DNA of 57,369 nt from Elusimicrobiales bacterium (GTDB lineage: Bacteria; Elusimicrobiota; Elusimicrobia; Elusimicrobiales; UBA9959), in NCBI GenBank assembly GCA_031082205.1, contig JAVHLJ010000014.1, positions 1 through 57,369 on the forward strand, given 5' to 3'. This document shows, in pieces, positions 10,253 through 56,900 of the stretch. Numbering within the stretch: the stretch's first letter is position 1; each line of letters begins with the position of its first letter. The notes below the pieces were generated by a model, which searched no databases, had not been told where the DNA came from, and saw nothing but the letters and a program-made list of their open reading frames with translations. The translations under genes were made by a program, and so were the position numbers.

Positions 10253-10253
10253 C

Positions 10254-14316: not shown

Positions 14317-14351
14317 CTCCCCTCCAGGAACCGTCGACAGGACCCATTCTA

Positions 14352-14400: not shown

Positions 14401-14487
14401 TAAGCGGTCAACACGAACGGGAGCCCGCCTCAACGACGGGCCCCCAAACCTGTATAGAGAGGATACAACTTGGGTTTATTGCGTTAA

Positions 14488-14505: not shown

Positions 14506-14521
14506 GCGGCCGCGGGCCGGT

Positions 14522-15184: not shown

Positions 15185-16254
15185 AAACCTGCGGTTCCTC
15201 CCGAAGACGGGATATCGGCGCGGATGCGCGTGCCTTTACCGGGCCTGGAATAGACGGAGAAAGAGCCCCCCGCCGAGGCGGCCGCGTCGGCCATGATCCT
15301 GAGGCCGAGACAGCCGGCCCGGTCCTTGCGGGACTTCGACGCGCCCTGGGCGAAGCCGCGGCCGTCGTCGCGCACTTCCAGGGTCAGCCACTTGTCGTCA
15401 CCCGAGAGCGAAAAGTCCAGGACCGCGGCGCCGGAATGCTTCTCGGCGTTGTTAAGCGCTTCCTGCGCCAGCCTGTAGATTATTATGGCGGCGGGGCCCG
15501 TGGAAACGGGTTTCCCCCCCGGGAGACGTATATCCCGGCGCACCTTCATGCCGGAGCGGCGGGAGAAGGCGGCCAGCAGTTCTTCGAGAGCTCCCTGCAG
15601 GCCGGACACGGGCAGGGCCGGAGGCCAGCTCTCCACGCAGGAGCGCTTTATACCCGACGAGAGTTCTTTAAGCAGGGCCCGGGCGCGCGCCGACGAGGCC
15701 AGGGCGCCGGCCTTGCCGCCGCGGCGCAGCCGGTCCTCCAGCAGCAGCAGTTCGGCCGAGAGCCCCACCTGCATCGCGCCCAGGGCGTCGTGCAGGCCGG
15801 CGGCCAGCCGCTTCTTCTCCTCCTCGCGCGCAAGCATGATGCGCGCGGAGAAGGCGCGGGCGTCCTCCTCCAGCGCGCGGCGCCAGGTCACGTCGCGCTC
15901 GATGAGTATGCCGTAAAGTTCGCCGCCGGAGCGGAAATTGCGGGCCGTCACTTCGGCCACCAGCGGGGAACCGTCGCGGCGGCGCTGCTTAACCTCGAAG
16001 ACGGAAGCGTCGCCGGACTGGAAGCGGCCGCGGCTGAGCGAGGCCCCAAGCCGGCCGACCGGCTTGCCCACCAGCTGGCCGCGTGAATAGCCGTGCATGG
16101 CCAGGGCGGCCGGGTTGGCGTCGACGATGACGGGAGAGCCGCCCTGCTTTATACGCAGGACTATGATGGAATCCCGGGACTGCTCGAATACCATCCGGTA
16201 AAGGGCGCCCCCGGGAAGACTCGCCTTGGTGCCTCCGCCCATATAAGGACCCAT
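15181..16254 (-). CDS. PAS-domain sensor histidine kinase (NarX/HisKA_3 type), cytoplasmic
   Basis: 357 residues from ATG at 16254. A PAS domain (about 15-125, LYRMVFEQSRDS through LIERDVTW) is followed by the HisKA_3 motif AAGLHDALGAMQVGLS (phosphoacceptor His near 155) and an HATPase with QEALNNAEKHSG and DDGRGFA. No membrane segment is seen, so the signal is probably cytoplasmic. The frame is also open to an ATG at 16332. That start has no ribosome-binding site and lies against an AT-rich -10-like sequence shared with the divergent regulator gene, so the shorter start is preferred without certainty. Confidence 0.85.
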   Translation of the reverse strand: MGPYMGGGTKASLPGGALYRMVFEQSRDSIIVLRIKQGGSPVIVDANPAALAMHGYSRGQLVGKPVGRLGASLSRGRFQSGDASVFEVKQRRRDGSPLVAEVTARNFRSGGELYGILIERDVTWRRALEEDARAFSARIMLAREEEKKRLAAGLHDALGAMQVGLSAELLLLEDRLRRGGKAGALASSARARALLKELSSGIKRSCVESWPPALPVSGLQGALEELLAAFSRRSGMKVRRDIRLPGGKPVSTGPAAIIIYRLAQEALNNAEKHSGAAVLDFSLSGDDKWLTLEVRDDGRGFAQGASKSRKDRAGCLGLRIMADAAASAGGSFSVYSRPGKGTRIRADIPSSGGTAGL

Positions 16255-40214: not shown

Positions 40215-41837
40215 TCAACGCGGAAGGGAGCGGAGAAGGGTTTCAGGGGAGACGGTGGGCTCGAAAATGCCGGAAGGGACCAGGCCCCATTTTCCAAGCA
40301 CCCGCGGCAGCAGGTAGTCGCGGACCGATATGACCAGGGGGACGCGGGCCTGGCGCAGGAGCCGTTCCAGGGCCGGGGCCCAGCCGTCGCCTTCCAGTTC
40401 CAGAAAACCGACCTCGTCGATAAAAACAGCGTCGGCGCCGGCGGTCCGTTCCGCCGACAGGGCCGCCAGGCCGGCGGCCAATCCCTCTTTGAAAAAGCCG
40501 AATTCCCCCGCCTTCACCGCCGACGGGGCGCCGCGCCGGCAGAGAGAAGTCCGCTCGCCGGTTGCGAGGTCTACCAGGTCGAAGCCGGAACGGACGCCGT
40601 TCTGCCATAGTCCTTCGGCCAGTATGCCGGCGGGCTTTTTCCCCGCCGCGCGCATAAGGGCGGCGAGTTCCGCGACGAGCGAACTTTTGCCGGAGCCGTG
40701 ACCGCCGGTTATGAAGATCACCCGGGGGCGGGCGCCTTCCAGCAGTTCCGGCGCGCGTGAGATCAGCGTGCGCAGCGAGGCGGCGGGCCGCAGCGCCATG
40801 TCGCGCCCCGACGGAAGCGCGCCCAGGACCAGCGGCAGCGAGGCGAAGGCGTATTCCAGCGTCTCGAAGAAGACCGGTCCCGCCAGGCGCTCCAGCGCGC
40901 GCCTCACGCGCGGGTTCATGAGTTCCTGCGCCACGGCGGCGAAGCCCAGGGCCAGGGCGAAGGCGCGCGAGGCCATGCGCAGGCCCGAGCCCCAGTCGCC
41001 CAGCAGCCAGCCGGCCAGCACGGAGACCAGCGCCACGCCCCCCCAGAGCCCGGTCCTCGACATGAGCGCCGCGGAGCGGGAATAGAAAACGGCGCAGACG
41101 AGGCCGTAGGAGACCGAGAGCCCCGCCGCCAGCGGCAGGGGCAGGCGGCCGGAGACCATGAGGCCCGCGACGACGAGAATATGCGCTCCCAGCAGCGCGG
41201 CCGACCGGTAGCCGGGAGTCCCCCCGGCGCGCGGGCGGAACAGCCCCGCTTCGCGGCGGCGCAGCGGGACGGTCCCGCCCGGAGAACCGGCCTTCATGCC
41301 GATCAGTGCCGCGGCCGCGCCGGCCGCCCCGTAAAGCCCCAGCAGCAGGAGCACAGGCCCCCATACCCCGCCGGGCTGGCCCAGCCAGTCCCGCAGTTTC
41401 TCTATGCCTTTCACGTAAATGTCCAGCGAAGCCGGGCCGTAGAATATGAGGAGTTTCCCCACTTTATGTACAAGGCCCCAGGTCATGGCGAGGACCCCGG
41501 CCAGCAGGTAGCCGGCGGCATTGCCTCCCAGCAGCCGAACGGCGGCTTCGGCCAGGAGGCCTTCGGCGAGGATGGCGACCATGGGGCTGAGAAGCACGGC
41601 GCTGGGAGAGACCGACTTCATCGCGGCGCAGACCAGCCCGGCCCGCCAGAGAAGTCCCCTCACGGGCCAGAGCCGGTGGCCGGCCACCAGTATCGCTATA
41701 CCTATACCGGTGAGCAGCAGGCCGGCGAAAGGGATACGCGCGTTCTTTAAAAAACTGCCCAATATTATCTCGGAGGCCGCCCAGAGGCTGCCTATGACCG
41801 CCGCTTTGCGCCAGAGAAGGATATCGCGGGCCGGCAT
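40215..41837 (-). CDS. Polytopic membrane protein fused to a THEP1-type NTPase
   Basis: 540 residues. Residues 1-330 have about eight hydrophobic segments (WAASEIILGSFL, AGLLLTGIGIAILVAGH, AGYLLAGVLAMTWGLV, AHILVVAGLMV and others). The last 171 are a THEP1/nucleoside-triphosphatase domain: P-loop GGHGSGKSS at 378-386 and Walker B AVFIDEVGFLELEG from 470. Stand-alone THEP1 proteins hydrolyse NTPs slowly and their job is unknown. The membrane part has a small-molecule transporter look, but I recognise no family. It precedes DUF134 by 52 bases, so it may or may not share that operon. Confidence 0.7.
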   Translation of the reverse strand: MPARDILLWRKAAVIGSLWAASEIILGSFLKNARIPFAGLLLTGIGIAILVAGHRLWPVRGLLWRAGLVCAAMKSVSPSAVLLSPMVAILAEGLLAEAAVRLLGGNAAGYLLAGVLAMTWGLVHKVGKLLIFYGPASLDIYVKGIEKLRDWLGQPGGVWGPVLLLLGLYGAAGAAAALIGMKAGSPGGTVPLRRREAGLFRPRAGGTPGYRSAALLGAHILVVAGLMVSGRLPLPLAAGLSVSYGLVCAVFYSRSAALMSRTGLWGGVALVSVLAGWLLGDWGSGLRMASRAFALALGFAAVAQELMNPRVRRALERLAGPVFFETLEYAFASLPLVLGALPSGRDMALRPAASLRTLISRAPELLEGARPRVIFITGGHGSGKSSLVAELAALMRAAGKKPAGILAEGLWQNGVRSGFDLVDLATGERTSLCRRGAPSAVKAGEFGFFKEGLAAGLAALSAERTAGADAVFIDEVGFLELEGDGWAPALERLLRQARVPLVISVRDYLLPRVLGKWGLVPSGIFEPTVSPETLLRSLPR

Positions 41838-41963: not shown

Positions 41964-42824
41964 TCAGAAGGACCAGGTCAGCCCGAGCGAGAAATAATTA
42001 TCCATCGCGGAGCCGCCGTGGCTCAGCCCTTCCCAGGAGGCGGAGACCTCGGCGGGGCCGGCCGGCAGGGAGAGGCCGGCCATGAGGGCTTCGCCGGAGG
42101 GCTGGTCCAGCAGGTAGCGCGTGCGGGTGTACCCGGCCCAGGGCGAGAGCGTGACGGACGGGAGCGACGCCCTCAGGGAGAGGGAATGGTCCGGGAAACC
42201 GCTGGAGCCGATGGCGCCCAGGTCCGTCGGCAGGGCCCTCGCGTCGCCGGCTATGTCCTTGTCATAGGAGGTCAGCGTGAACCTGGCCGAGAACCTCACC
42301 CCGCCCGACCGGGCGGAACCGGAAAGACCGTAATCGTACTGCGCGAGGCGGAAAGGGGCGCTCCTGGCGGCGCCGGGCTGGCGGCGCCCGGGACCTGACG
42401 AGGCCGCGGAGGCGGCGTAAAGGTCCTCATGAGCCGTGAAGCCGGCGAAAACCCCCAGGTAGAGAGCGTCCAGTGAAAAGTCGCCCGGAGGGTCCCAGGT
42501 CAGTTCCCCCTGCAGCCCCGTGGCGGAGTACCCGCCGGTCTCGGGGGTAACCGAGAGCCCGGCCGAAACGGCCCATTCCCCGCGGTCCGCTCCGCCGAAA
42601 AGGGCGAACGAAGAATAGCGCTCCGCCCCGTCGCTCGAATAGGTGTTCAGGGAGGGCCGGAGATGGTAAACATCGTCGCCCCATTGCGCGAACAGGTTCA
42701 GCCCGGAATAGCCGCCCGGCCCCGCCGTGAGCGTCAGCCCCGCGTCCGTGTACGCCTCCCCGTCGGGCGCGGCGGCGGCCGCGGCCGGAACGCAGAGCAG
42801 GAGGCAGGCGAGCAGGCAACTCAT
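41964..42824 (-). CDS. Outer-membrane beta-barrel protein, unknown
   Basis: 286 residues. Signal peptide ends AAAAAAPDG. The rest alternates polar and hydrophobic residues in about ten to twelve strands with short turns (for example YSGLNLFAQWGDDVYHLRP) and finishes YFSLGLTWSF with terminal Phe, the outer-membrane insertion signal. No family recognised. It is the last gene of the nikR operon, 43 bases after the frameshifted barrel gene. Confidence 0.65.
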   Translation of the reverse strand: MSCLLACLLLCVPAAAAAAPDGEAYTDAGLTLTAGPGGYSGLNLFAQWGDDVYHLRPSLNTYSSDGAERYSSFALFGGADRGEWAVSAGLSVTPETGGYSATGLQGELTWDPPGDFSLDALYLGVFAGFTAHEDLYAASAASSGPGRRQPGAARSAPFRLAQYDYGLSGSARSGGVRFSARFTLTSYDKDIAGDARALPTDLGAIGSSGFPDHSLSLRASLPSVTLSPWAGYTRTRYLLDQPSGEALMAGLSLPAGPAEVSASWEGLSHGGSAMDNYFSLGLTWSF

Positions 42825-42867
42825 AGGACGCGGTCAGAGCCAGGCTTTTATGGCGGCGCCTTCCATA

Positions 42868-43606
42868 TCAGAACCTTATGGTCAGGCCGGCGACAAGGCC
42901 GAAGTCGTCGGCGGAGTCGTTGAGGCCGAACCTGGCGCCGGCGGAGAGGTCGAGCGAAGGGGTCGTCTCCCAGACAAGGCCGAGCACGGTCTGCACCGGG
43001 TGCGAGGCGGCGCCCTTGTCGGCGTTGGTCTCTATCGCCAGTTCCGCCGCGGCGAAAAGACCGGGCAGCACCTTGTGCGCCGCCATGGCCGAGGCGCTGA
43101 AGATGTTCCGCTCCTCTCCGCCGGAATTGCTGTTGTTCTTATAGCCCGCGTTCAGATAATATTCCCGCGGGCCGTCGACATGGCCGGCCACGCCTATGAC
43201 CCAGGCCTGACCCTTGCCGGCGCCCAGGCCTTTGGCGTCGTCCCCTGCCGGAAGGGAAAAGCCGGGCTTGAGGGCCAGGTCCCAGCCGCCGCGCGAAGCC
43301 ACCCAGAACTTGGTCTCCAGCGAGACGTCGCCCAGGCCGCTCTCGGAAAGGCCGCCGGAATTCCAGCCCTGAGGGAGCGCTTATCATGATCTCCAGCTTG
43401 TCCCAGAGGCCGTAGGAGAACTGGGCCGCCAGTTCATTGGTGAAAGTATCGGGGCCGCTGGTCTTCTCGGAATGGTCGAAGCCTACCTCGGCCTGTATCT
43501 CGTCGCGGTCGAGGAAACCGGTGTCCTCCGTAGACATCGGGTGGAAAGCGGCGGCTCCGGCCGGCAGCGCCAGCAATATGGATAAAGCAAAATGGGAAAC
43601 GCGCAT
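42868..43606 (-). pseudogene. Outer-membrane barrel protein interrupted by a frameshift
   Basis: The N-terminal part (from 43606) has a signal peptide and reads AAFHPMSTEDTGFLDRDEIQ to KLEIMISAP, typical of the MetA-pathway-like barrel family. Near 43369-43376 the frame runs into low-complexity sequence. A different frame continues sensibly as QGWNSGGLSESGLGDVSLET and runs to a C-terminal GLTIRF at 42868. One extra base (or two missing) in CTCCCTCAG explains this. It may be a real inactivating change or a sequencing/assembly error; the reading frame on both sides is otherwise intact. The combined product would be about 245 residues. Confidence 0.8.
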
Positions 43607-43615
43607 GATGTTCTC

Positions 43616-44662
43616 CTAATACTCGTTCACGGACAGTGTTTTCGCGGTCAGAAGCGCCCTGACAGCCCGCTTAATTCTATCAAAAGACGCGCGGGATGAA
43701 CCCTTTCCGGAAAAAATTTCCGACAGTACCCTGAGCCCCTGTACATCGTCCGCTTTGACGGTCAGGACCACGGAGCCGGGGGCGAGTTCTCCCGCGTGCA
43801 GGCCGTCGCCGTCGCCGTCCACTATGCCGATCACCGGGACGCCGAAGCGGCGCAGTATATCGCCGGCTATCGCCGTGGTATCGTCTCCGACAGTCACAGC
43901 CCCGGCCACGCCCGCCGCCAGTTCATAGACGTGCATGCCGGCGTGGTCGATGAAGGCCACGCCTTTTCCCGCGCCGCGCACGGGCCTGGCCTTCCCCCCG
44001 CGCCGGAGGGCCCGGGTCGAGGCCAGCTTGGCATTGCGGAGGTCCACGCCGCCCAGGCGCTCCAGCTTTTCAAGGCCGTGCGGCTTCACGCGCACGCCGC
44101 GCAGTTCGGTCAGGCGGCGGCCGGCGGAGGTCAGCACCACCTCTCCGCCAAGGGCGCGGCCGACAACTATCCCGTCGACCAGGACGAAATCCCCTTTACC
44201 GGCGGTGGTCATGCGCCGGCAGAGCCTCCCCCCCTCCTCCCATATACCGGCCCGGGCCTTCGGCGCGCGGACCGGGGAGAGTCCCAGCTTCTTAAGCGCG
44301 GCGGCGACGGAGGCGGGGCAGGCCCCGGCCTGCGGAGCGAAGACGCGGCCGGTGCATTCCGCCTGCACCAGCGGGACGCCGGGCGCGGCCCTTTCCGCTA
44401 TCATGCTCCCGAAAACGAGTCCCGAGCGGCGGGATTTGCCGCGCGTGGCCAGTATAACGGCCGAACAGTCCCGCTCCAGGAGTCCGACGCAGGCCGACGG
44501 CAGCAGGCCGGGGGTTTCCACTTTTTTCAGGCCGCTGTCGTGCAGGGCGGTGCGCGACATGGTGCCGGCCAGCATGAACCTGGCGAGCGGGAAGGCACGC
44601 ATTATTTTCGCGGCCCAGCCGCTGTCGAATACCTCCGGGCCGTGGAAAAGCACGCCGGTCAT
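43616..44662 (-). CDS. DUF2117-like protein
   Basis: 348 residues, no signal peptide or membrane helix. The start [19 protein letters not shown], then [15 protein letters not shown], and later [18 protein letters not shown] agree with my memory of DUF2117, described mainly from archaea such as methanogens. Later segments [17 protein letters not shown] and [20 protein letters not shown] look like a nucleotide- or metal-binding fold. Function unknown. It overlaps the upstream TPR gene by four bases and lies in the nikR operon, so a nickel-related role is a guess. Confidence 0.55.
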
Positions 44663-45213
44663 TTCTTTATGGACTCCAGGTAAAGTTCCGCGCGCCGGCG
44701 GCTCCAGGCCTCGTCGCCGGAATTATTTTTCTCAGCCCAGTAAGCGGCGTTGCGCTCCCACAGTTCGGCGGGGCGGCCGTAAGACGAGATATCCCGTCCC
44801 CCGGCTTTGAGCAGTTCGGCGGCGTGCTCGGCGGCGTCGGCCGCCAGGAACCAGGCGCCGGAGCTTTCGCAGAACGAGCTAAGCGCTTCGTAGGCCGCGG
44901 CCGCCCCGCCGGCGTCGCCTTCCCTTTCCAGCAGGCCGGCCAGCCGCGAGGCCAGAAAAAGCGCGGGTTCCCTAAGGGCCCCCTTCACGCAGACATCGAA
45001 GCCCCGTCGGTAGCATTGGCCGGCGCCGGGGTCCCGGCGGGCTTCCAGCAGCGCACCGGCGTTGAGATAGCCCATGGCCGCCAGCGCGTAGCTGCCCTTG
45101 GAGGCTTTCAGCTCCGCGAACTCCAGCCAGGGCGCGGCGGAATTCTCCCCCCGCGCGCGGGCCTCCAGGCGCCGTCCCTCCAGGTAACTGTCCTTGACGG
45201 GTGAACTCTCCAT
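44659..45213 (-). CDS. Small helical-repeat (TPR/SNAP-like) protein
   Basis: 184 residues, almost all helical: [30 protein letters not shown] and [13 protein letters not shown] resemble tetratricopeptide or SNAP-type repeats (shorter runs quoted in part). No signal peptide. Probably a cytoplasmic scaffold. It lies eight bases after the permease-like gene and overlaps the DUF2117-like gene. Confidence 0.55.
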
Positions 45214-45221
45214 TTCTCCTC

Positions 45222-46175
45222 CTAGGAAATAAGCATGACCAGGCCGGCGAGCACCGCGCCGTAGGCCGCTATGCGCGAGGCCATGGACGCGGCGATGATC
45301 ACCGTGCCGTCCGAGGCGCCGAAGATGGCGAAGTAATAGGGCACGGTATAGCGCAGGCTGGTGGCGGTGGCGGCGAAGGCCCCGGCGAAAAGCCCCAGCA
45401 CCAGTTCCCAGCCCGTGGCCGCGCCGGAAGCGTAAAGGCCGCCGGCGACGGTATAGGCGCCCGCCGGGCTTATCAGCCTGGCCGCCACCACCGGCAGCAC
45501 GGCCGGATTGAGCGGGATATAATCCGTCATGAAGGCCAGCGGACCGGCCGCCCTGTCGAAGAAGCCCGCGGCTATCAGGAAATAGACGAGATAGGCCACG
45601 GGGACCATGGTTTTGAGCACCTTCATTATGGTCCTGAGCGAAGGCTTGAGCGCGGAGCTGGCCGCCGCGGAAAAAGGGACCGCCGCGGCGGAGGAGGCGG
45701 CGACGGGCGAATGCGCCCGCCTGGGAAGGATCAGTCGTCCAGCGAGCAGCATTATAAGCGCCTTGAGAGCGGACGCCGCCAGGAGGACGCCGTAATACGC
45801 GGCGCCGAAAAAGCCCAGCACCGGCAGGGCCAGCGGCAGGACGCTCTTGCCGGTGGCTATCTCGCCGGGCAGATTGTTGACTATGGCGGCTATTGTCAAT
45901 TCGCGCCTGTCCAGCCTGCCCGAGACGCGCAGATCGGCGAGCAGGGCGTGCCCGGCCGTCGGGGAGACCACGCTGGTGACGAAGCCCGGTCCGCAGGCGG
46001 GGCTCAGGCGCCCCAGGCGCATGACGGGCCCGGCCAGCCAGGCCAGGCCGGAGAGCCAGCCCATCCTGCCCAGCAGGTTGGCGGCGTAAACGGCCGCGGC
46101 GAAGACCGGCACGACCCTCAGCAGGAATTTTGAGCCGCCGGCGAGGGCGTAGGACAGTTCAGGGGAGAGGACCAT
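45222..46175 (-). CDS. Gate-domain (nucleoside-recognition) membrane protein, candidate transporter
   Basis: 317 residues with about eight hydrophobic segments arranged as two similar halves. TSVVSPTAGHALLADL and IVNNLPGEIATGKSVLPL resemble the Gate/nucleoside-recognition family, which includes parts of ion and nucleoside transporters. It begins three bases after the TonB receptor stops, under apparent NikR control, and is the only inner-membrane protein of the operon. It is therefore the best candidate for moving nickel or a nickel chelate into the cytoplasm. That role is inferred from position alone. Confidence 0.65.
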   Translation of the reverse strand: MVLSPELSYALAGGSKFLLRVVPVFAAAVYAANLLGRMGWLSGLAWLAGPVMRLGRLSPACGPGFVTSVVSPTAGHALLADLRVSGRLDRRELTIAAIVNNLPGEIATGKSVLPLALPVLGFFGAAYYGVLLAASALKALIMLLAGRLILPRRAHSPVAASSAAAVPFSAAASSALKPSLRTIMKVLKTMVPVAYLVYFLIAAGFFDRAAGPLAFMTDYIPLNPAVLPVVAARLISPAGAYTVAGGLYASGAATGWELVLGLFAGAFAATATSLRYTVPYYFAIFGASDGTVIIAASMASRIAAYGAVLAGLVMLIS

Positions 46176-46178
46176 CGG

Positions 46179-48362
46179 TCAGAGTTTCCAGGCGAGCTCG
46201 GCGAACCAGGAGCGGCCCGGCGCCGGATAATAGTCGTAATATTCCTTGTCGAAGATGTTCTGGGACAGCAGCGACAGGGATACCGTATCGTTTAATTTAT
46301 ACGCCGCTCTCGCGTCGGCGGTAAAATGAGCCCCGCGAGATCCGTATACTCCGTCCACGATGTCGGTATTGGCGTCGGTGGTCCAGCGCTTCCCGACATA
46401 ACGGCCGGAGCCGCTCAGGGTAAGGCGACCGGCGCGCAGCTCGCCGCCAAAGGACCAGAGCTTATCGGGAAGATAGGTGAGCTTCTTGCCCACGCTGGCG
46501 GGGCTGGCGGCGTTCTCCCGTATCCGCGCGTCGTTGAGGGTCAGGCTGGCGTAAAGCCGGCTCCCGCCTTCGAAGAGCTGCTCGGCCTCCAGCTCCCAGC
46601 CTTTGCCGAAAGCCCGCCCGGCGTTGGAGTAGAGCCGGTCGGAGCCCGAGGCGTAACGGTAGATAAGGTCCTTCATCCTGTTCTCGAAGTATACGGCGCC
46701 GACTTTTGCTCCCCACCAGAGGCGCTGATCAACGCCGAAGTCCCAGGAAACCACGGTCTCCGGCCGGAGGCCGGGATTGCCGGCGTAAGTGACCGATCCC
46801 GAGGTCCAGGTACGGTAAAGTTCGTATACGGCAGGAGCGCGGAAAGAGCGGCCGGCCGAGCTCCGCAGCGTAGTCCGGGCCGCCGGCGACCAGACCAGCG
46901 AGGCCTTGGGGCTCAGGGCCGAGTCCGAGCGGGACGCGTAAGTTTTAGGATACCCGGCCGTGCCGGGCTGGTCGGCCATGCCGTCGTAGGTGCGCCAGCG
47001 GTCGCCGCGCAGCGAGAGCCAGGCGGTAAGAGAGCGGTGGAGCGCTATCTCGTCCTGTATATAAAGGCCCAGGTCCGCGTTCTTGCCGGAGGACATATAG
47101 GTCACGGCTCCCTTCTCTTCGGGAAGCAGCCAGTCCGCCAGCGCGCGCTCCTCGGTACCAGCCCGGGAGAAACGGAAAGAAGCGCCGACGGTCAGGGAAT
47201 TGGCCGGGACCAGCGCCGGCAGCTTAACCTGGGCTTCGGAGTTATGAGAGAAGGCGGGAGTGTCGGCTATTTTCCCCGGCCCGCCGGCGCGCGTGGCGCT
47301 GGCGGCCTCGGGCGTTATATACCAGGAGCGGTCCGTATCCACCAGGCCGAAGGCCACCCTGAGACCGCAGGGATCTCCCGCTCTCTCATAAACGGCCGAG
47401 AAAGAGCTCTGCCGGCGCCCGCCGTCGCCGCCGAGGAAAGTTCCCTCCTTTACCGTGCCGTAAGTCCAGACCTCCGCGCCGGAAGCGTCGCGCAGGTAAG
47501 TGGCGGGGTCCTTGTAAAAATAATCGTAAGCGGCGCGCGAGAAGGAGAAGCTCAGTTTGTCCGAGCCGGAAAGGTCGTACCAGGCTCGCAGGGAGCCGCT
47601 GAGTTCCTTCCAGCCGTTATTCCCCTTGTCGCCGACGATATAGCGGGCCGCGCCGGTATTGCTTGTCGTGCTCTCCCAGCCCGTCAGCCCGGCCGTCGGC
47701 GCAGCGCTCTGCACATTGAGGTCGGCGGGATAGCCGTCGGTGCGCTTATATCCGAAGCTGCCGAGGAAACTAAGGCGGGAACCGACGCGGTCCCCGTACG
47801 AAAGATAGCCCTTTACCAGGTCCTCCATAGCCGGGGACGGGCCCAGCCGGCCGCCATAGCCGCCCTTTAGCGTTATCTCCCGCTTCAGCGGCCTGCGCGG
47901 CACGAAGTTGACTACCCCTCCCATGGCGCCGCCGCCGTAAAGGCCGGAAAAAGGCCCGCGGGCGACCTCTATCCTTTCGATGTCCTCCGGCTGAAGGCCG
48001 CCGTAGGCAACGGCGCCGGTATAGGCGTCGTTCATCGGGACACCGTCGAAAAGGATCAGCGTGCGCTTCTGGTCCGGGACGCCGCGCAGCGTAAGGGCCG
48101 AGGAGGTGTCCATGAACCCTTTGCCGCGGCGGTTGAAGACGCCGGGCAGCGCGTTGAGCGCCTGGTCGGCCGTCTGCGCGCCCCTGGCCTCGATCTCGTC
48201 CTTTAAGACGACCGAGACCGCGCCGGGGGACAGGCCGGAAACGGCGGTCCCCCTGGCCGCTATGCCTACTATCTCGCCTGCCCAGACCTCCGCCGCGCGG
48301 GCGGGAGCCGCGGCCGGAGGGAAAAAAGAGGTCAGAGCGATGAGCGCCAACACCTTTTTCAT
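46179..48362 (-). CDS. TonB-dependent receptor, probable nickel(-chelate) receptor
   Basis: 727 residues. Signal peptide ends ARAAEVWAG. Plug domain (about 40-160): AQTADQALNALPGVFNRRG, ALTLRGVPDQKRTLILFDGVPMND (partly quoted), and EDIERIEVARGPFSGLYGGGAMGG. The large barrel ends WFAELAWKL. A region LRSSAGRSFRAPAVYELY is typical of the family. It resembles vitamin B12/siderophore receptors in general form. It follows nikR by 57 bases, with a NikR-type half-site in between, which points to nickel. FrpB4 of Helicobacter is a precedent for a NikR-controlled TonB receptor. Confidence 0.88.
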   Translation of the reverse strand: MKKVLALIALTSFFPPAAAPARAAEVWAGEIVGIAARGTAVSGLSPGAVSVVLKDEIEARGAQTADQALNALPGVFNRRGKGFMDTSSALTLRGVPDQKRTLILFDGVPMNDAYTGAVAYGGLQPEDIERIEVARGPFSGLYGGGAMGGVVNFVPRRPLKREITLKGGYGGRLGPSPAMEDLVKGYLSYGDRVGSRLSFLGSFGYKRTDGYPADLNVQSAAPTAGLTGWESTTSNTGAARYIVGDKGNNGWKELSGSLRAWYDLSGSDKLSFSFSRAAYDYFYKDPATYLRDASGAEVWTYGTVKEGTFLGGDGGRRQSSFSAVYERAGDPCGLRVAFGLVDTDRSWYITPEAASATRAGGPGKIADTPAFSHNSEAQVKLPALVPANSLTVGASFRFSRAGTEERALADWLLPEEKGAVTYMSSGKNADLGLYIQDEIALHRSLTAWLSLRGDRWRTYDGMADQPGTAGYPKTYASRSDSALSPKASLVWSPAARTTLRSSAGRSFRAPAVYELYRTWTSGSVTYAGNPGLRPETVVSWDFGVDQRLWWGAKVGAVYFENRMKDLIYRYASGSDRLYSNAGRAFGKGWELEAEQLFEGGSRLYASLTLNDARIRENAASPASVGKKLTYLPDKLWSFGGELRAGRLTLSGSGRYVGKRWTTDANTDIVDGVYGSRGAHFTADARAAYKLNDTVSLSLLSQNIFDKEYYDYYPAPGRSWFAELAWKL

Positions 48363-48375
48363 GCCGTCCCCGATG

Positions 48376-48402
48376 ATGCCATGTTTTTTTAAATAGTAAC
48401 AC
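48376..48402 (-). promoter_or_regulatory. Candidate second NikR operator, upstream of the TonB receptor
   Basis: In minus-strand sense GTGTTAC-N13-ATGGCAT. The first half is perfect and followed by TAT, exactly as in the nikR site; the second half is weaker. The shared layout GTGTTACTAT...ATGRCAY supports a common regulator. Confidence 0.5.
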
Positions 48403-48419
48403 GAAAAATCAAAAAAATA

Positions 48420-48836
48420 TTACCGCCCGGCGCTGGTGACGCTGAGCGTGGCGTGCTTGACGCCTTTGACGGCCTTGAGAGCGTCGGCCAGCAGCTTCAC
48501 CTCCGCCCCGAGCCCTTTTACCGCTATGATCTCCAGGCAATTGTCGTGGTCCAGGTGCACGTGCTGGGCCGAGATTATGATGTCCCCGTGATCGTGCTGT
48601 ATGTCCAGCAGGCGGTTGACCACCTCGCGCTTGTGATGGTCGTAGACCACCGTGACGGCGCCGGCCACCGTGGCGCCCTTGGCGAAGTCGTCGGCGACGA
48701 ACTCCTTGCGGATGAGGTCGGCGATGGCCTTGGAACGGCAGGTATAGCCCTCGCGGGCAATATAGGCGTCGAAGCGGCCGAGCAGGTCCCCGTCCAGGGA
48801 GACGCCGAAGCGGGAGAGGGTCTTTTTGCGTGTCAT
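48420..48836 (-). CDS. nikR: Nickel-responsive regulator NikR
   Basis: 138 residues. N-terminal ribbon-helix-helix (RFGVSLDGDLLGRFDAYI) binds DNA; the C-terminal ACT-like domain binds Ni2+. All four high-affinity ligands line up with E. coli H76, H87, H89 and C95 at a constant offset of five: His81, His92, His94 and Cys100 (QHVHLDHDNCLE). It represses its targets when nickel is plentiful. The operator overlaps its own start codon, so it should be autoregulated. First gene of the downstream operon. Confidence 0.96.
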   Translation of the reverse strand: MTRKKTLSRFGVSLDGDLLGRFDAYIAREGYTCRSKAIADLIRKEFVADDFAKGATVAGAVTVVYDHHKREVVNRLLDIQHDHGDIIISAQHVHLDHDNCLEIIAVKGLGAEVKLLADALKAVKGVKHATLSVTSAGR

Positions 48837-48856
48837 CTTTACGGATATAGTAACAC
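48830..48856 (-). promoter_or_regulatory. NikR operator overlapping the nikR start
   Basis: In minus-strand sense GTGTTAC-N13-ATGACAC. The pattern agrees with the GTGTTAC-N13/14-GTAACAC box I recall for NikR in deltaproteobacteria, with two mismatches in one half. That half contains the nikR ATG. TACTAT inside the site may be the -10, ten bases before the ATG. Confidence 0.7.
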
Positions 48857-50473: not shown

Positions 50474-50508
50474 AAGCCGTCCGCCGGATCCGGCGGGCGG
50501 CTTTTTTA
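50474..50508. terminator. Bidirectional terminator between the C11 protease gene and hypF
   Basis: AAGCCGTCCGCCGG and CCGGCGGGCGGCTT pair with one non-Watson-Crick position and T-runs follow. It overlaps the hypF stop codon. Confidence 0.85.
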
Positions 50509-52815
50509 TTTGTCGGGGGAGGTTTTAATGCCGGCAGCGGCGAAGTAGGCCTGGCCCAGGGCGATGCAGCCGTCGTTGACGGGAGAAAGGCGGTTGGCCA
50601 GCGGCCGCAGGCCGCGGGCGGCCAGCAATTCCGAGGTCCATTCCAGGAGGATACGGTTCTGGAATACGCCGCCGCAGAGTATCACATTTTTCGTGCCCAG
50701 GCGGCGGGCCATGCCGGCGAGTATTTCCGCCGCGGCCTCGGCCAGGCCGAGGTGGAATTTGGCCGATATGCGGGCAGCCCTGGCGGGGTCCTTCTCCGCG
50801 AGCGCCGCGGCTATCACGGGCCGCCAGTCCAGTTCGGTCATCCCGGCATTACCGGATATCCCGAATTCATACCCGTCGCGGTTGCGGGGGCCGCAGAGGC
50901 TTTCCAGTTCCATCGGGCCCTGCGCCTCGTAGGTGGAAAAGGAACCGAGGCCGGCAGCGCAGGCGACGGCGTCGAAGAGCCGGCCCATCGAAGAGGAGAC
51001 CGGCGAGTTAACCCCGGCGGAGACCATTGTAAGCGCGGTGGACGCGGCGGAGGACGACGGGGCCAGCCTGAAAACTTTGGCCAGGGCGGCCGGGCCGCAG
51101 TCCGCGGCCATGGCCAGCAGCGGCCGCCAGGGCTCGAGGGCGGCGGCGTCGCCGCCGGGCAGGCGGAAAGGGCGCAGGCGTCCCTCCCGGCGCCAGGATC
51201 TGCCGGTGACGGAGAGGAATTCCCCTCCCCAGATAGAGCCGTCGGAGCCATAGCCCGTGCCGTCGAAAGCGGCGCCGCAGAAAGGGGGCTTGAGGCCGTT
51301 CTCGGCCGCCACCGAGAGAAGATGCGCCAGGTGATGCTGGCAGCGGTCCGCCTTCAGGCCGAGCCGGGCGGGCAGGGCGGAAGAAAAATAGTCGGGGTGA
51401 AGGTCGGCCACGGCACGGCGGGGCTTAACGCCCAGCAGCGCCGTCATCTTGCGATAGGTTTCCAGGTGGAAATCCCTGTTGCCGCTCTCTTCAAGGTCCC
51501 CTATGTACTGGGAAAGATAGGCCTCGTCGCCGCGCGTCAGGCAGAACGAGCTCTTGAGATCGGCGCCGGCGCAGTATAGGGAAGTTTTCGGCTTGAAAGG
51601 GAGGCTGACGGCGCGGGGCACGGCGCCCCTGGCCATGCGTATGTAGCGCGGCTCGCCGGCGGCGACGAAGGTCACGCTGTCGTCGATGCGGTTGTGTATG
51701 GGGCGGTCGTGGAAAAGGAAGAATTCGGCTATACCCGCGGCGGCGCCGGTCCCGCGGCCGGACAGGGCCGCCTTAGCCTCGTCGTCGTCCTTGGAGATAG
51801 GCTCGTCGCGCCTGTTGCCTGAGGTCATGACGAGCCCACCAGCGAAGCCGCGGGCGGCCAGCGCCGCGAAGAGGGCCTCGTGCAGCGGGGTATAGGGCAG
51901 CATGACGCCGACGGAGGAGAGCCGAGGCGCGGCGCCGCCGAAGGAGCCGGGGCGCAGTTTGCGCAGCGTCACGATAGGGGATAAAGGCGAGGAAAGCAGC
52001 TCGCGTTCACTGGCGGAGACGTCGAAATGCCGGACGGCCCAGGCCAGCGAGGGGGCCATTATCGCCAGCGGCTTATGCGGGCGCCGCTTGGCCGCGCGAA
52101 GGCGGGCTATCGCCGCGGCGCCGGCAGCGTCGCAGGCCAGGTGGAAGCCGCCGAGGCTTTTCAGCGCCACTATCTTTCCCCCGGCCAGCGCGGCGGCGGC
52201 CAGGGACATGGCCCTCGCTCCTTCTATCTTCTTCCCGCCGGAGAAACAATAAACGCGCGGGCCGCAGGCCGGGCAGGCGTTGGGCTGGGCGTGGAAGCGG
52301 CGGTCCAGCGGGTCGCGGTACTCTTTGGAGCAGGCGGGGCACATCTTGAAGCCGGCCATAGTGGTCTTGGGCCTGTCGTAAGGCAGTGTCTTCACTATGG
52401 TGAAGCGCGGGCCGCAGTTGGTGCAGTTGGTGAAAGGGTACAGGTGCCGCCGGTCCCGCGGGTCGAGCATCTCGCGGCGGCAGTCGCCGCAGAGGCCCAG
52501 GTCGGCCGGGATGATGGCCGAAGAACTTCCGGCGGAAGCGCTCTCTTTGATAGTGAAAGGACCGGAGGGGCCGGGCTTCAGGGCGGAGACGGCAAGGGAG
52601 TCTATCCGGGACTGGGGCGGCGACTTGTGTCGTATGCCGGAGATGAAGGCTTCTACGGCTGGGGCGGGGCCCTGGGCCTCTATGGTGACGCCGCCGAGGT
52701 CGTTGCGGACCCAGCCGGAGATACGGTTCTCGAGGGCGAGCTTATAGACGTTCGGCCTGAAGCCGACGCCCTGCACCACGCCTTTTACGATTATTTTCTT
52801 CCTGATGTCAGCCAT
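50506..52815 (-). CDS. hypF: Carbamoyltransferase HypF
   Basis: 769 residues. Makes the cyanide ligand precursor of [NiFe] hydrogenases by transferring a carbamoyl group to HypE. Acylphosphatase domain (VVQGVGFRPNVYKLA, near 14-30), two zinc fingers (CGDCRREM; CTNCGPRF; CPACSKEY; CPACGP; about 110-190), YrdC-like domain (about 200-385), Kae1-like domain with HHLAHLLSV and VILCGGVFQN. Complete and of normal length. Last gene of the hyp operon. Confidence 0.96.
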   Translation of the reverse strand: MADIRKKIIVKGVVQGVGFRPNVYKLALENRISGWVRNDLGGVTIEAQGPAPAVEAFISGIRHKSPPQSRIDSLAVSALKPGPSGPFTIKESASAGSSSAIIPADLGLCGDCRREMLDPRDRRHLYPFTNCTNCGPRFTIVKTLPYDRPKTTMAGFKMCPACSKEYRDPLDRRFHAQPNACPACGPRVYCFSGGKKIEGARAMSLAAAALAGGKIVALKSLGGFHLACDAAGAAAIARLRAAKRRPHKPLAIMAPSLAWAVRHFDVSASERELLSSPLSPIVTLRKLRPGSFGGAAPRLSSVGVMLPYTPLHEALFAALAARGFAGGLVMTSGNRRDEPISKDDDEAKAALSGRGTGAAAGIAEFFLFHDRPIHNRIDDSVTFVAAGEPRYIRMARGAVPRAVSLPFKPKTSLYCAGADLKSSFCLTRGDEAYLSQYIGDLEESGNRDFHLETYRKMTALLGVKPRRAVADLHPDYFSSALPARLGLKADRCQHHLAHLLSVAAENGLKPPFCGAAFDGTGYGSDGSIWGGEFLSVTGRSWRREGRLRPFRLPGGDAAALEPWRPLLAMAADCGPAALAKVFRLAPSSSAASTALTMVSAGVNSPVSSSMGRLFDAVACAAGLGSFSTYEAQGPMELESLCGPRNRDGYEFGISGNAGMTELDWRPVIAAALAEKDPARAARISAKFHLGLAEAAAEILAGMARRLGTKNVILCGGVFQNRILLEWTSELLAARGLRPLANRLSPVNDGCIALGQAYFAAAGIKTSPDK

Positions 52816-52837
52816 TTAAAATCGAGAACTTTCCGGG

Positions 52838-53647
52838 CTACCGGCCGGTGACGACCCGGCCGGTGGAGTAATCGAGCTGGCTGCCGTACATGCTGTGCGG
52901 GATGAAATAGACGAGGAGGGTGGCGGCGAAGGCGGCGACGAGCCAGGGCCGGGGGTTCTTCGCTTTGAAAGAGGCCCACAGGGCGGCGAGCCAGAAGAGC
53001 AGCAGCGCCAGGGTCTTATTGTCGGTGAGGTCGTGGCCGAAGGGCCAGCCGGTCCAGTAATGTCCGAAGGCGTGGTACTGGGTCAGCGGGCCGAAAATAA
53101 AACCGCCCAGTATCAGGAAGGCCGTGTTCCAGGCCACGGCGTGGCGCACGACCAGGTCTTTGGTGAATAGGGAGATCATGACGCGCACGGAAAAGACCAT
53201 GAAGAGGAACATCAGAAGGACGTGCGGGACAAGTATCCAGGCCGGCACGTCGCCCTTGAAGCGTACGACTATGAGTTCCGGGCCGAGCCGCATGGTCTCG
53301 CCGCCGCGGCGCAGCGTGACATGATATTCCAGCTTGCCGGCGGGAGGCTGGTCGGGCAGGCGCGCGGAATAGAGCGGCCCTTCGGAGGCTATCTCAGTGC
53401 CGGAAAAAGGCTCGCCGGTACCCAGGCGGCGCCAGGCAAGGCCGGCCTCAAGTGGAGCCCCGCTGACGATCTTGACCAGGCAGTCGCCGACGGTGCAGCT
53501 GCGCGGCAGGCGGTAGGACGATATCTCCGCCCCGGCGAATTCCAGGTTCTTGCCCTTTATCGGGTAGGTGGGGCCGGTCGCCCGCTGGAAGACGGCGAAG
53601 AAAAGCGTGACCAGCAGGGCTATGCCCCAGTAGGATACTTTTTTCAT
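52838..53647 (-). CDS. Membrane protein of unknown function within the hyp operon
   Basis: 269 residues. N-terminal helix (about 8-22), a periplasmic beta-rich part (about 25-130, ending ELIVVRFKGDVPAW), then four membrane segments (ILVPHVLLMFLFMVFSVRV; AWNTAFLILGGFIFG; LALLLFWLAALWASF; LVAAFAATLLVYFIP). His and Asp residues lie in the loop between the second and third (QYHAFGHYWTGWPFGHD), which could bind metal or haem. Family not recognised. ATG overlaps the hypE stop (TGATG) and hypF follows after 22 bases, so co-expression with hydrogenase maturation is likely. Confidence 0.6.
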   Translation of the reverse strand: MKKVSYWGIALLVTLFFAVFQRATGPTYPIKGKNLEFAGAEISSYRLPRSCTVGDCLVKIVSGAPLEAGLAWRRLGTGEPFSGTEIASEGPLYSARLPDQPPAGKLEYHVTLRRGGETMRLGPELIVVRFKGDVPAWILVPHVLLMFLFMVFSVRVMISLFTKDLVVRHAVAWNTAFLILGGFIFGPLTQYHAFGHYWTGWPFGHDLTDNKTLALLLFWLAALWASFKAKNPRPWLVAAFAATLLVYFIPHSMYGSQLDYSTGRVVTGR

Positions 53648-54669
53648 CAGCAGATGCGCGGCAGCTGCTCGCCTTCGAGCATGCGGAGGAGTCGCGAGCC
53701 GCCGACGGCGGTGCGCAGCGAGACGTCGCCGCCCTTTCCTAGGACGCGTCCCGCTATGACGGCGCCGCGGCCGTAGCGGTGGGAGCGCAGGGCCTTGAGC
53801 ACTTTCGCGGAAGAGGACGGCGGGCAGAAGAGCATAGCCCGGCCCTCGTTGGCCGAATAGAGCGGGTCCAGGCCCAGCAGGGCGCAGGCGTTGGCCGTGA
53901 CAGGCGAGACCGGGACCTTCTCCTCGTCGAGCTCGATCGAGAGCCCCGAGGCGGCGGCGGCCTCGTTGAGAGAGGTGGCCAGACCGCCGCGCGTCAGGTC
54001 GCGCATGGCGCGCACCGCGCCGGCGGACAGGGCTTTCTCCAGCATGGCGTTGAGCGGGGCGCAGTCGCTCCTGAGGCCGCTCAGGCCGAGGTTATTGCGG
54101 GCGTTCATTACGGCCACGCCGTGGTCGCCAAGCGGGCCGCTGACGATCAGTTCGTCGCCGGTACGCAGGCCGGAGAAAGAGAGGCTCCTGCCGGCGGGGA
54201 TAAGTCCGACGCCGGCGGTGGAGATGAAAAGACCGTCGGCCTTGCCCTTGTCCACCACCTTGGTGTCGCCGGTGACGATATCGACGCCGGCCTCGGCGGC
54301 CGCCGCTTTCATCGACAGGACGGCCTTCTTGAGCAGTTCCCCGTCGAAGCCTTCTTCGATTATGAAAGAGGCCGACAGCGCCAGCGGGCGCGCGCCCTTG
54401 ACCGCCAGGTCGTTGACGGTGCCGCAGACGGCCAGCTTGCCGATGTCGCCGCCGGGAAAGAAGAGCGGGCTGACCACGTAGCCGTCGGTGGTGAAGGCCA
54501 GGCGCTCGCGGCCGGCCTTTATCTCGGCGGAGTCGGCCAGTTCGGCGAGGGCCTTGTTGGCGAAGGCGCGGGCGAAAAGGCCCGAGACCAGCTCGTGGGT
54601 CAGGCGGCCGCCGCTGCCGTAGGCCAGCGCTATCTTAGCGGGGACTTTCAGGCCGCTTTTTCCGGGCAT
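53647..54669 (-). CDS. hypE: Hydrogenase maturation protein HypE
   Basis: 340 residues, PurM-like ATP-dependent dehydratase. It turns the C-terminal thiocarbamate to thiocyanate for the Fe(CN)2CO centre. N-terminal AYGSGGRLTHELV, MRDLTRGGLATSLNE, and the essential C-terminal PRIC (Cys340) are all present. It overlaps the LysR-type gene by 22 bases. Confidence 0.95.
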   Translation of the reverse strand: MPGKSGLKVPAKIALAYGSGGRLTHELVSGLFARAFANKALAELADSAEIKAGRERLAFTTDGYVVSPLFFPGGDIGKLAVCGTVNDLAVKGARPLALSASFIIEEGFDGELLKKAVLSMKAAAAEAGVDIVTGDTKVVDKGKADGLFISTAGVGLIPAGRSLSFSGLRTGDELIVSGPLGDHGVAVMNARNNLGLSGLRSDCAPLNAMLEKALSAGAVRAMRDLTRGGLATSLNEAAAASGLSIELDEEKVPVSPVTANACALLGLDPLYSANEGRAMLFCPPSSSAKVLKALRSHRYGRGAVIAGRVLGKGGDVSLRTAVGGSRLLRMLEGEQLPRIC

Positions 54670-55559
54670 AGTGGTTTTCCTTTTTCGAAGACGGTATTGA
54701 GGAAATGCCGCGCGGCCGGGCTGAGCTTGCGCGTGCGGGAACGGAGCAGGTAGACGGTGCGCCTGAGGTCGAGGTCCCGGAACTTCACGGCCTTTATGCC
54801 GCGCGAATCCCCCCCGCCGAAGGCGGAGACCGGCAGTATCGAGGCGCCCACGCCCGAGCGCACGGCGGTCTTTATGGTCTCGATGTCGTCGAGCTCCATC
54901 TTCACCCTGAGAGGCAGGCCTTCCCTGCCGAAGAAATCGTCTATGAACTTCCGGGACGGGTAGGCCTTGTCGAAAAGGACGAAATCCAGCGAGCGCAGGG
55001 CGTCGCGGCCGATATCGGCGGAGCGCGCGGCCTCGGAATTCTCCGGCGCGGCCAGCATCATCTCCTCCGCGCAGACCGGCAGGTAGGAAATGTCGCCCTG
55101 CTTTTTGGGGGCGCAGGCCAGGAAACCGAAATCGGCGCGGCCGGCCTGCACGTCGCCGGCCACCTGTTCCGACTGCCTGTACTCGACGCTGACCTTTATC
55201 TCGGGGCGGGCCGACATGAAGCGGCTAATGTAGCCCTGCAGGAGGTAGAGCCCCGTGCTGTAGATCGTGGAGATGCGCACCGAGCCCGCGGACTTGCCCG
55301 GGTGCGACTTGACGATGGAGGCGAGGACGGAGGAATAGAGGGAGGAGATCTTTTTAGCCGCCTCGTAGAGCGAGGCCCCCTCGTCGGTGAGCGTGACCCC
55401 GTCGCGGCCCCGGTTGACGAGGGGGCAGCGGAACACCGTCTCCAGTTTCCTGAGCTGCTGGCTGACGGCCGACTGCGTGACGCCGTTGAGCTCGGCGGCG
55501 CGCGAGAAGCTGCCGGTATCGGCCAGGTCGCGGAAGAGCTTGAGCGTCTCTATCGTCAT
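54648..55559 (-). CDS. LysR-family transcriptional regulator
   Basis: 303 residues from ATG at 55559. N-terminal winged helix (FRDLADTGSFSRAAELNGVT, SAVSQQLRKLE), then the substrate-binding-like effector domain (VRISTIYSTGLYLL to the end). It lies two bases after the hypD stop and overlaps hypE, inside the maturation operon rather than diverging from it, which is unusual for LysR genes. It may sense a metabolite linked to hydrogen metabolism; effector unknown. Confidence 0.9.
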   Translation of the reverse strand: MTIETLKLFRDLADTGSFSRAAELNGVTQSAVSQQLRKLETVFRCPLVNRGRDGVTLTDEGASLYEAAKKISSLYSSVLASIVKSHPGKSAGSVRISTIYSTGLYLLQGYISRFMSARPEIKVSVEYRQSEQVAGDVQAGRADFGFLACAPKKQGDISYLPVCAEEMMLAAPENSEAARSADIGRDALRSLDFVLFDKAYPSRKFIDDFFGREGLPLRVKMELDDIETIKTAVRSGVGASILPVSAFGGGDSRGIKAVKFRDLDLRRTVYLLRSRTRKLSPAARHFLNTVFEKGKPLCPEKAA

Positions 55560-55561
55560 CT

Positions 55562-56695
55562 CTATCCGCCGTACTTGAACCAGGCGGCGCAGGCGCCTTC
55601 GGAAGAGACCATGCAGGGGCCTACCGCCGACGACGGGGTGCAGGCCTTGCCGAAGAGGCGGCAATCCGGCGGCGAGGCCTTGCCGGTCAGCACAAGGCCG
55701 CAGATGCAGCCCTTCGGCTCGGGGGCTTCCCGCTCTTTCACCCCGAATTCGGCGAAGGCGTCGTAAGCGGAGTAAGCCCGGGACAGCGCCAGGCCCGAAC
55801 CCGGGATCTTCCCGATGGCCCGCCAGGAGGCGCCGGCGGGGGCGAAGACCTCCGACATCAGCTTGAGCGCGGCGGGATTGCCCCCCGCCTTTACCACGCG
55901 GCTGTACTCGGTGTCGACTTCCGGGCGGCCGGAGAGCATCTGCCCGAGCAGGGCGTCGACGCCGCGCAGTATATCCAGCGGCTCGAAGCCGGCTATGACG
56001 CAGGGGACCTTGTACTTCTCTGCCACGAAACGGTAGGGCTCGGGGCCTATTATCGCGCTGACATGGCCCGGCATGATGAAGCCGTCCACCTCGGTATTCC
56101 CGGCGGAGAGCAGCGCCTCCAGCGCCGGCGGCACCAGCTTGAAGAGAGGGGCGACGAAAAAATTCTTAAGCCCGGCGGCCCTGGCGCGGACCAGCACGCC
56201 GCCGATGACCGGGGCGGTGGTCTCGAAGCCGACGCCTATAAAGACGACCTTGCGGGAGGGCTCCGTCCGGGCTATCTCCAGGGAGTCGAGCGGGGAATAG
56301 ACCACCCGCACGTCGGCTCCTTTCTCGCGGGCGGCCTGCAGGTCGAGCCCCTTGCTCCCCTTTACCTTCAGCATGTCGCCGAAAGTGGCGACCGTCACGC
56401 CGCCGATGAGGGCCAGTTCTATCAGCCGGTCTATGTCGCCCTGCGAGGTGACGCAGACGGGGCAGCCGGGACCGGAGAGCATCTTTACAGGGGGCGGGAG
56501 GAGGCGGCGCAGGCCGGCTGCGGCGATGGACATGGTGTGGGTGCCGCAGACCTCCATGAAGTTGGCGCGGCGGCCGGCGGCGGCCAGGCTGGCGGCTTTT
56601 TCCGCGATTGCCGCCACCATCCGCCCGGCCAGGGCCTTATCGCGGAAAAACGGGGCCGTATCGGCGGGCAGTTTAAGGCCTGAACCCTTTTTCAT
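55562..56695 (-). CDS. hypD: Hydrogenase maturation protein HypD
   Basis: 377 residues from ATG at 56695. Carries a [4Fe-4S] cluster and, with HypC, assembles Fe(CN)2CO. FMEVCGTHTMSI, GPGCPVCVT, GFETTAPV and the C-terminal Cys set (GCICGLV, PDCRLFGKACTP) are conserved. The frame is open beyond this start, but the extension lacks HypD similarity. It overlaps hypC by 23 bases. Confidence 0.95.
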   Translation of the reverse strand: MKKGSGLKLPADTAPFFRDKALAGRMVAAIAEKAASLAAAGRRANFMEVCGTHTMSIAAAGLRRLLPPPVKMLSGPGCPVCVTSQGDIDRLIELALIGGVTVATFGDMLKVKGSKGLDLQAAREKGADVRVVYSPLDSLEIARTEPSRKVVFIGVGFETTAPVIGGVLVRARAAGLKNFFVAPLFKLVPPALEALLSAGNTEVDGFIMPGHVSAIIGPEPYRFVAEKYKVPCVIAGFEPLDILRGVDALLGQMLSGRPEVDTEYSRVVKAGGNPAALKLMSEVFAPAGASWRAIGKIPGSGLALSRAYSAYDAFAEFGVKEREAPEPKGCICGLVLTGKASPPDCRLFGKACTPSSAVGPCMVSSEGACAAWFKYGG

Positions 56696-56900
56696 AGAGC
56701 TCCTGGAATACGTCGAGGGTCTTTTTCGCCTCGTCCGGGTCGAGCACCTGTATGGCAAAGCCCGCGTGGACCAGGACATAGTCGCCTTTTTTGGCGGCGG
56801 GCACAAGGTCCAGCGCCACCTGGCGGCGGGTACCGCCGAAATCCACCTCGGCGGAAGCGTCGTTCTTAACCATTATTTTTCCGGGAACAGCCAGACACAT
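56673..56900 (-). CDS. hypC: Hydrogenase maturation chaperone HypC
   Basis: 75 residues. MCLAVPGKI with the essential Cys2, then DFGGTRRQVALDLVPAAKKGDYVLVHAGFAI (part), the HypC/HupF signature. GGAGG lies five bases before ATG. First gene of hypC-hypD-lysR-hypE-orf-hypF. HypA and HypB, the nickel-insertion pair, are not in the window. Confidence 0.95.
   Translation of the reverse strand: MCLAVPGKIMVKNDASAEVDFGGTRRQVALDLVPAAKKGDYVLVHAGFAIQVLDPDEAKKTLDVFQELYEKGFRP

Follow-up and report, generated by a model that had tools for sequence, protein, structure and literature searches.

How does a bacterium obtain nickel for its NiFe hydrogenase when none of the nickel importers one would look for is found in its genome? 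The question is raised by an Elusimicrobiales bacterium, in whose contig JAVHLJ010000014.1 (GCA_031082205.1; the 57,369 nt analysed here are called the window) an operon at 41964-48856 begins with nikR, the gene of the nickel-responsive repressor. It continues with genes for a TonB-dependent outer-membrane receptor (TBDT), a Gate-domain membrane protein, a TPR/SNAP-like protein (TPR) and a DUF2117 protein. We consider it probable that these genes provide a NikR-repressed route of nickel acquisition, the nickel most likely entering as a small-molecule chelate, with Gate as the inner-membrane step and TPR–DUF2117 acting in the cytosol. This reading starts from four observations in the sequences: the gene order, the operators, the recurrence of the string and the absence of the tested importers.

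The need for nickel is evident from the genome (2.75 Mb, 100% complete), which encodes a NiFe hydrogenase with the RICGIC and DPC.SC motifs (both CxxC). A search of this genome returned no CbiM/NikM, NicO, HupE (HupE_UreJ) or UreH-like protein. Since the Pfam NicO model misses the UreH/NicO-like protein of a relative, the metagenome-assembled genome (MAG) GWB2_63_16 (G199), a search was also made with that protein and returned none either; the view that GWB2_63_16 itself is devoid of a NicO-type permease was wrong, as it carries this overlooked protein. CbiM/NikM is missing from G178, G199 and G202 too, and G178 likewise has no NicO, HupE or UreH-like protein. Two SBP_bac_5 proteins of the Elusimicrobiales genome reach 118 and 107 bits, where the NikA cut-offs are 393 and 600; no NikA above cut-off is present, and NikABCDE is absent from the operon. 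The earlier note had seen no known nickel transporter family in the operon, and this can now be extended to the genome for the families tested.

Within the window, nikR is followed by six open reading frames, all on the minus strand and separated by the short gaps listed in Table 1. The gene order, gaps and coordinates given in the earlier note were reproduced, and its single terminator corresponds to a terminator-like hairpin with a T-run. Its count of seven genes after nikR is reached only if nikR is included, although the co-directional string itself stands.

The string is not peculiar to the window. DUF2117 is rare in the phylum (two of 199 genomes), and a scan of 84,980 species genomes gave ten loci, L004 to L013, or eleven with the window; none was found among plasmids and viral contigs. 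The order nikR–TBDT–Gate–TPR–DUF2117 is shared by the window, L004 and L005. The last two have other flanks and come from GWB2_63_16 and from another genus of the window's family, respectively (L005 is on the same contig as L003, of G178). In two Acidobacteria the string is rearranged: in L007 nikR diverges from Gate–TPR–DUF2117 with TBDT alongside, and L011 reads Gate–TPR–DUF2117–TBDT. A third arrangement, TBDT–binding protein–FecCD–ATPase–Gate–TPR–DUF2117, is found in L008, L009 and L010, and again in L012 and L013, where Gate is missing. Finally, in L006 (a contig binned as Brachymonas) TPR–DUF2117 is divergent from TBDT and a binding protein. The unit that recurs in Elusimicrobia and Acidobacteria is TBDT–Gate–TPR–DUF2117, with nikR often linked. 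A search for co-occurrence had been suggested earlier, and the string is indeed accompanied by nikR or NikR sites in the window, L004, L005, L007 and L011; the association fails in Desulfobacteraceae, which we take up below.

Is the operon under NikR control? The window's NikR exceeds the cut-offs of both NCBIfam nikR equivalogs (PRK04460 and PRK02967), and its nickel ligands His-His-His-Cys (H81, H92, H94 and C100) are invariant in the six NikRs compared. Its ribbon-helix-helix (RHH) part is weak by hidden Markov model (HMM; 12.5 bits against a cut-off of 20.5). The delta-proteobacterial NikR signal is GTGTTAC-N13/14-GTAACAC, and the everted form GTAACAC-N13/14-GTGTTAC has also been reported (PMC545781). 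Scanning with this signal in both orientations, at up to two mismatches and with dinucleotide shuffles as control, gave exactly two matches in the 57-kb window (shuffle mean, 0.04). They are the sites previously noticed at the operon head and before the receptor. The convergent operator over the nikR start recurs at the same position in L004 and L005. Everted sites with an ACGAAWT core, only loosely kept in the window's own everted site, precede TBDT or Gate in L005, L007 (two) and L011. These four relatives contribute seven further matches, and all nine sites in the five loci (120 kb) have their centres 4-47 bp from the start of nikR, TBDT or Gate (some starts in the relatives were re-read from the sequence for these distances); the summed shuffle means are 0.25. 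Such placement amounts to phylogenetic footprinting of NikR control over the receptor and Gate genes. The regulator is available in each case, nikR being beside the string in L004, L005 and L007 and elsewhere in the genome in L011. A genome-wide search for the exact palindrome (zero mismatches) gave no match, a criterion that is too strict. The nickel regulation and nickel context of the operon are well supported.

The earlier note counted two outer-membrane barrels, encoded downstream of DUF2117, as parts of the uptake system. A second nikR operon of GWB2_63_16 (L070, 7260-9127), with a NikR-type site just before nikR, indicates otherwise. It is collinear with the window through hypD–hypE–hypF–peptidase–nikR (peptidase 67% and NikR 78% identical), and nikR is directly followed by an intact homologue of barrel 1 and then by a UreH/NicO-like permease that contains a His-rich loop. 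The permease call is our motif reading; Pfam gives only DsbD_2 (PF13386). None of the four cassette genes is at this locus. In the window they sit exactly between nikR and barrel 1, and the permease gene is missing. The barrels are not conserved in the other strings, where barrel 2 was not found at all, and were dropped as cassette members; barrel 1 is, as judged from L070, a resident of the older nikR locus. Its gene in the window has one frame change near 43375, either a true mutation or an assembly error. The cassette fills the nikR/barrel 1 junction of L070, and GWB2_63_16 has a cassette copy of its own elsewhere, on the contig of L004 and beside a separate nikR. It therefore seems to be a transferable unit, inserted into a hyp-linked nickel operon at the point where the relative keeps a nickel-type permease.

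The receptor has both plug and beta-barrel domains, and its plug resembles that of CntO (6i96, E 1e-13). Full-length homologues are found in all nikR-linked strings and in a CobN-type operon, L068 (32%, E 1e-100). The Gate protein is modelled by AlphaFold2 as two helical halves (pLDDT 79), whose closest PDB folds by Foldseek are the nucleoside transporters CNTnw and CNT3 (probability 1.00, TM 0.5, E 4.6e-3); a sequence search of the PDB gave no significant match. Its family profile also recovers FeoB, which together with the fold match backs the Gate assignment, and none of the 317 residues form a FeoB-type N-terminal GTPase domain. A role as the permease of the inner-membrane step, as proposed before, is plausible. 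It would not be an obligate one, because in Desulfobacteraceae an ATP-binding cassette (ABC) importer of the FecCD type stands beside Gate or in its place.

What follows the membrane step would be the work of TPR–DUF2117. TPR is kept in 11 of 11 loci and overlaps DUF2117 by 4 bp in every one, which makes the pair an invariant, translationally coupled core. TPR has TPR matches in the PDB, no signal peptide and no transmembrane segment. Its partner had been called DUF2117-like; the family was right but understated, since the match to PF09890 is strong and full-length (279.5 bits against a cut-off of 25; profile 1-325 of 325), and the protein is DUF2117 proper. It has no signal peptide, so it is probably cytoplasmic, in agreement with the earlier placement. 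Residues H7, E10, D13, E102-C103, H195 and D239-H240 and the motifs GDDTT and DGD.D are invariant and could form a metal or ligand site. The structural model is of fair quality (pLDDT 83, pTM 0.65); a sequence search of the PDB found no significant match. We infer a cytosolic handler of the imported nickel chelate.

Put together, the cassette is plausible as a complete nickel route from the outer membrane to the cytoplasm. TBDT would bring nickel through the outer membrane, most likely bound in a small-molecule chelate. Gate, putatively a two-repeat protein of the CNT/FeoB type, would carry out the inner-membrane step, accompanied or replaced by the FecCD-type importer in the Desulfobacteraceae relatives. 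TPR–DUF2117 would receive the import product and free or hand on the nickel for hyp-dependent maturation of the NiFe hydrogenase. When nickel suffices, Ni-NikR would bind the convergent operator over nikR and the everted operator before the receptor, turning the unit off.

Parts of this scheme are familiar. FrpB4/FecA3 of Helicobacter, NikH and CntO are outer-membrane nickel TBDTs under NikR or nickel control. In H. pylori, the inner-membrane step is by NixA (NiCoT) and NiuBDE (ABC), whereas the window offers Gate and TPR–DUF2117. Gate may share the membrane core of FeoB, which its family profile recovers, but it stands alone, without the GTPase domain and without FeoA. NikMNQO/NikKMLQO (ECF) and NiCoT/HupE/UreH are likewise NikR-linked and lie beside nickel-enzyme genes, but no component of the operon is homologous to them. 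The Desulfobacteraceae version resembles BtuBFCD/FecBCD, with TBDT–Peripla_BP_2–FecCD–ATPase before (Gate)–TPR–DUF2117, while the window version has no ABC importer. The Hmu heme system of Bacteroidota, with HmuS, also combines a TBDT operon with a metal-from-chelate step; the window differs in NikR control and in having TPR–DUF2117 where Hmu has a CobN-like protein. The open-access literature (subscription papers and regulon databases were outside the search) held no account of nickel uptake by TBDT, Gate and DUF2117 and nothing on NikR together with nucleoside recognition; DUF2117 came up in a single, unrelated paper, with no function assigned.

What might the chelate be? Two sister operons are instructive here. 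L069 (G006:C5, of the same phylum; 2472-15772) reads nikR–TBDT–Peripla_BP_2–FecCD–ATPase–Gate–CobN–ChlI/VWA ATPase–ExbB–ExbD–TonB. In L068 (G150:C151; 1985-14814) a string of this type begins with the receptor gene, and another CobN lies upstream. Both operons encode a Gate protein related to the window's; the relationship of the L069 receptor is remote (22%). CobN and the chelatase ATPase, known from tetrapyrrole metallation, occupy the place of TPR–DUF2117. Such an operon, headed by nikR in L069, may be to nickel what CobN-based de-chelation is to heme. The CobN-like HmuS, a proven heme de-chelatase encoded in a TBDT operon, removes iron from heme and acts near the periplasmic face (PMC12583661). 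In B. fragilis, heme-iron use needs both FeoAB and CobN-like proteins (PMC6460266). Methanothermobacter marburgensis makes a CobN and a NikR only under nickel limitation, when the transporter MTBMA_c10530 rises (PMC12350162), and the CobN-type genes MTBMA_c10550-10570, close to it in number, have been proposed as nickel chelatases (PMC3087415). The sister operons and these parallels suggest that the imported species is a chelate on which TPR–DUF2117 acts.

The same evidence can be taken further, to scavenging of a nickel tetrapyrrole such as F430 or its breakdown products, from which TPR–DUF2117 would strip nickel in the cytosol much as HmuS frees heme iron. It would fit that Pfam describes PF09890 as archaeal and that both methanogen control genomes contain it. 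However, DUF2117 shows no likeness to any chelatase in sequence or fold and no CobN/Mg-chelatase homology, the receptor matches BtuB among others and is not diagnostic for tetrapyrroles, and the methanogen DUF2117 could serve something else. We regard such scavenging as unlikely, if worth keeping in mind. Its sharper form, that TPR–DUF2117 is a new cytosolic enzyme pair stripping nickel from F430 or a relative released by methanogens, is slightly less probable still. If true, it would mean that hydrogenases are fed with nickel recycled from an archaeal cofactor, TPR–DUF2117 being an unrelated functional counterpart of CobN/HmuS de-chelation. In M. jannaschii the Gate proteins MJ0871/MJ0880 presumably lie near CfbC, of F430 synthesis.

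The BtuB-like matches of the receptor, the CobN-type relatives and the likeness of Peripla_BP_2/FecCD/ATPase in the ABC-bearing strings to BtuFCD raise another prospect, that cobalt or a corrinoid is taken up and is merely co-regulated by NikR. We think this improbable. The key promoters carry NikR sites, the equivalent locus (L070) has hyp genes together with a UreH/NicO-like permease, and no cobalamin riboswitch was found near the related loci scanned (L004-L013, L068-L070 and L072-L074, the window itself being outside the scan). Riboswitch control of the related strings was accordingly rejected. Nickel rather than cobalt would be the metal moved.

More doubtful again is the proposal that the receptor alone is nickel-related, and that Gate, TPR and DUF2117 share its operon but work in a different pathway, such as one of nucleosides or of chelate synthesis. 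Their roles are assigned by position, and Gate's best fold matches are nucleoside transporters. Yet Gate has its own NikR site in L007 and L011, its profile also matches FeoB, and the four genes stay together through several rearrangements. Some NikR proteins regulate genes other than those of uptake. A unit for nickel export, storage or detoxification is very improbable all the same, even with a hydrogenase operon predicted under NikR (PMC545781), as TonB receptors import and a genome with a NiFe hydrogenase would be left without a nickel importer from the tested families.

Several points weigh against a NikR-repressed nickel route as we propose it. All five Desulfobacteraceae carriers (including L008, titled Pseudomonadota, which groups with them) have no nikR anywhere in the genome and no NikR sites at the string; they do have CbiM, and their receptor is of a different family. 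NikR control is therefore not universal. The HMM match of Gate is below the curated Pfam cut-off and its fold matches have E-values of about 5e-3, while DUF2117 has no confident structural match (Foldseek, E <= 0.001). Most of the carrier genomes are MAGs, the Elusimicrobiales genome may contain a divergent NikABCDE or a permease outside the families listed, and both the nickel response and the uptake are predicted from sequence. The earlier note had held that strings occurring consistently without nikR would speak against a nickel role. They do so occur, in this one lineage, and there a nickel/cobalt neighbour persists: in three nikR-less Desulfobacteraceae the genome's only NicO gene shares a contig with the string, at a distance of 0.4 to about 20 kb. 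We thus describe the module as one of nickel or metal-chelate import that is NikR-controlled in Elusimicrobia and Acidobacteria.

In these Desulfobacteraceae, NicO stands behind DUF1007, with a DtxR-type regulator in two of the three; a DtxR protein may be the stand-in for NikR. The DUF1007-NicO pairs near DUF2117 strings are at L072 5152-9884, L073 9029-13733 and L074 9941-11550, and in L072 and L073 the pair is beside a DtxR/MntR-type regulator and a divergent FeoB-like gene. About 1.6 kb from the string of L008 (10676-12515, minus strand), an apparently secreted protein with a tetrapyrrole-methylase domain is encoded beside DUF4198 (NikK-like); an exported TP_methylase would be odd.

The cassette may be the nickel importer that has been missing in hydrogenase-bearing Elusimicrobia and Acidobacteria. 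It points to nickel as a possible substrate of a stand-alone Gate transporter and gives a first clue to the function of DUF2117, which methanogens have as well. The NikR-linked CobN operons hint that organic complexes may be a source of nickel for bacteria; such harvesting would be new for this metal.

Table 1. Features of the nikR operon and its upstream neighbours in the window
Feature	Position	Strand	Remarks
NikR operator, convergent, GTGTCAT-N13-GTAACAC	48830-48856		Over nikR start; 2 mismatches to published signal
nikR, nickel-responsive RHH repressor, 138 aa	48420-48836	-	NikR_C (PF08753) E 1.1e-31
NikR operator, everted, GTAACAC-N14-ATATTAC	48396-48423		34 bp upstream of TBDT start
TBDT, 727 aa	46179-48362	-	Gap 57 after nikR; Plug 1e-24, barrel 2.5e-37
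Gate-domain inner-membrane protein, two predicted repeats, 317 aa	45222-46175	-	Gap 3; PF07670 E 3e-5
TPR/SNAP-like protein, 184 aa	44659-45213	-	Gap 8; SNAP E 1e-3
DUF2117 protein, 348 aa	43616-44662	-	Gap -4 (overlap with TPR); PF09890 E 4e-83
Barrel 1, Phenol_MetA_deg-like outer-membrane barrel, two frames	42868-43606	-	Gap 9; PF13557 1e-7
Barrel 2, outer-membrane barrel, 286 aa	41964-42824	-	Gap 43; no family; last gene of unit
Intrinsic-terminator-like hairpin and T-run	41958-41940	-	End of transcription unit
hypF	50506-52815	-	TIGR00143 1e-209
Unnamed open reading frame	52838-53647	-	Upstream of nikR, beside hypF
AIR-synthase-related protein, taken as hypE	53647-54669	-	AIRS domains
LysR-type regulator	54648-55664	-	Ends overlap hypE-type gene and hypD; kept in L070
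hypD	55562-56806	-	HypD 5.5e-140

The upstream neighbours of nikR are genes of NiFe-hydrogenase maturation (hyp; 50506-56806), and a C11-peptidase gene lies between nikR and hypF on the opposite strand. Elsewhere in the window, at 40215-41837 on the minus strand, a 540-aa protein combines an N-terminal membrane region (no Pfam family) with a P-loop domain of the NTPase_1/THEP1 type; DUF134 and Nitro_FeMo-Co genes come after it.

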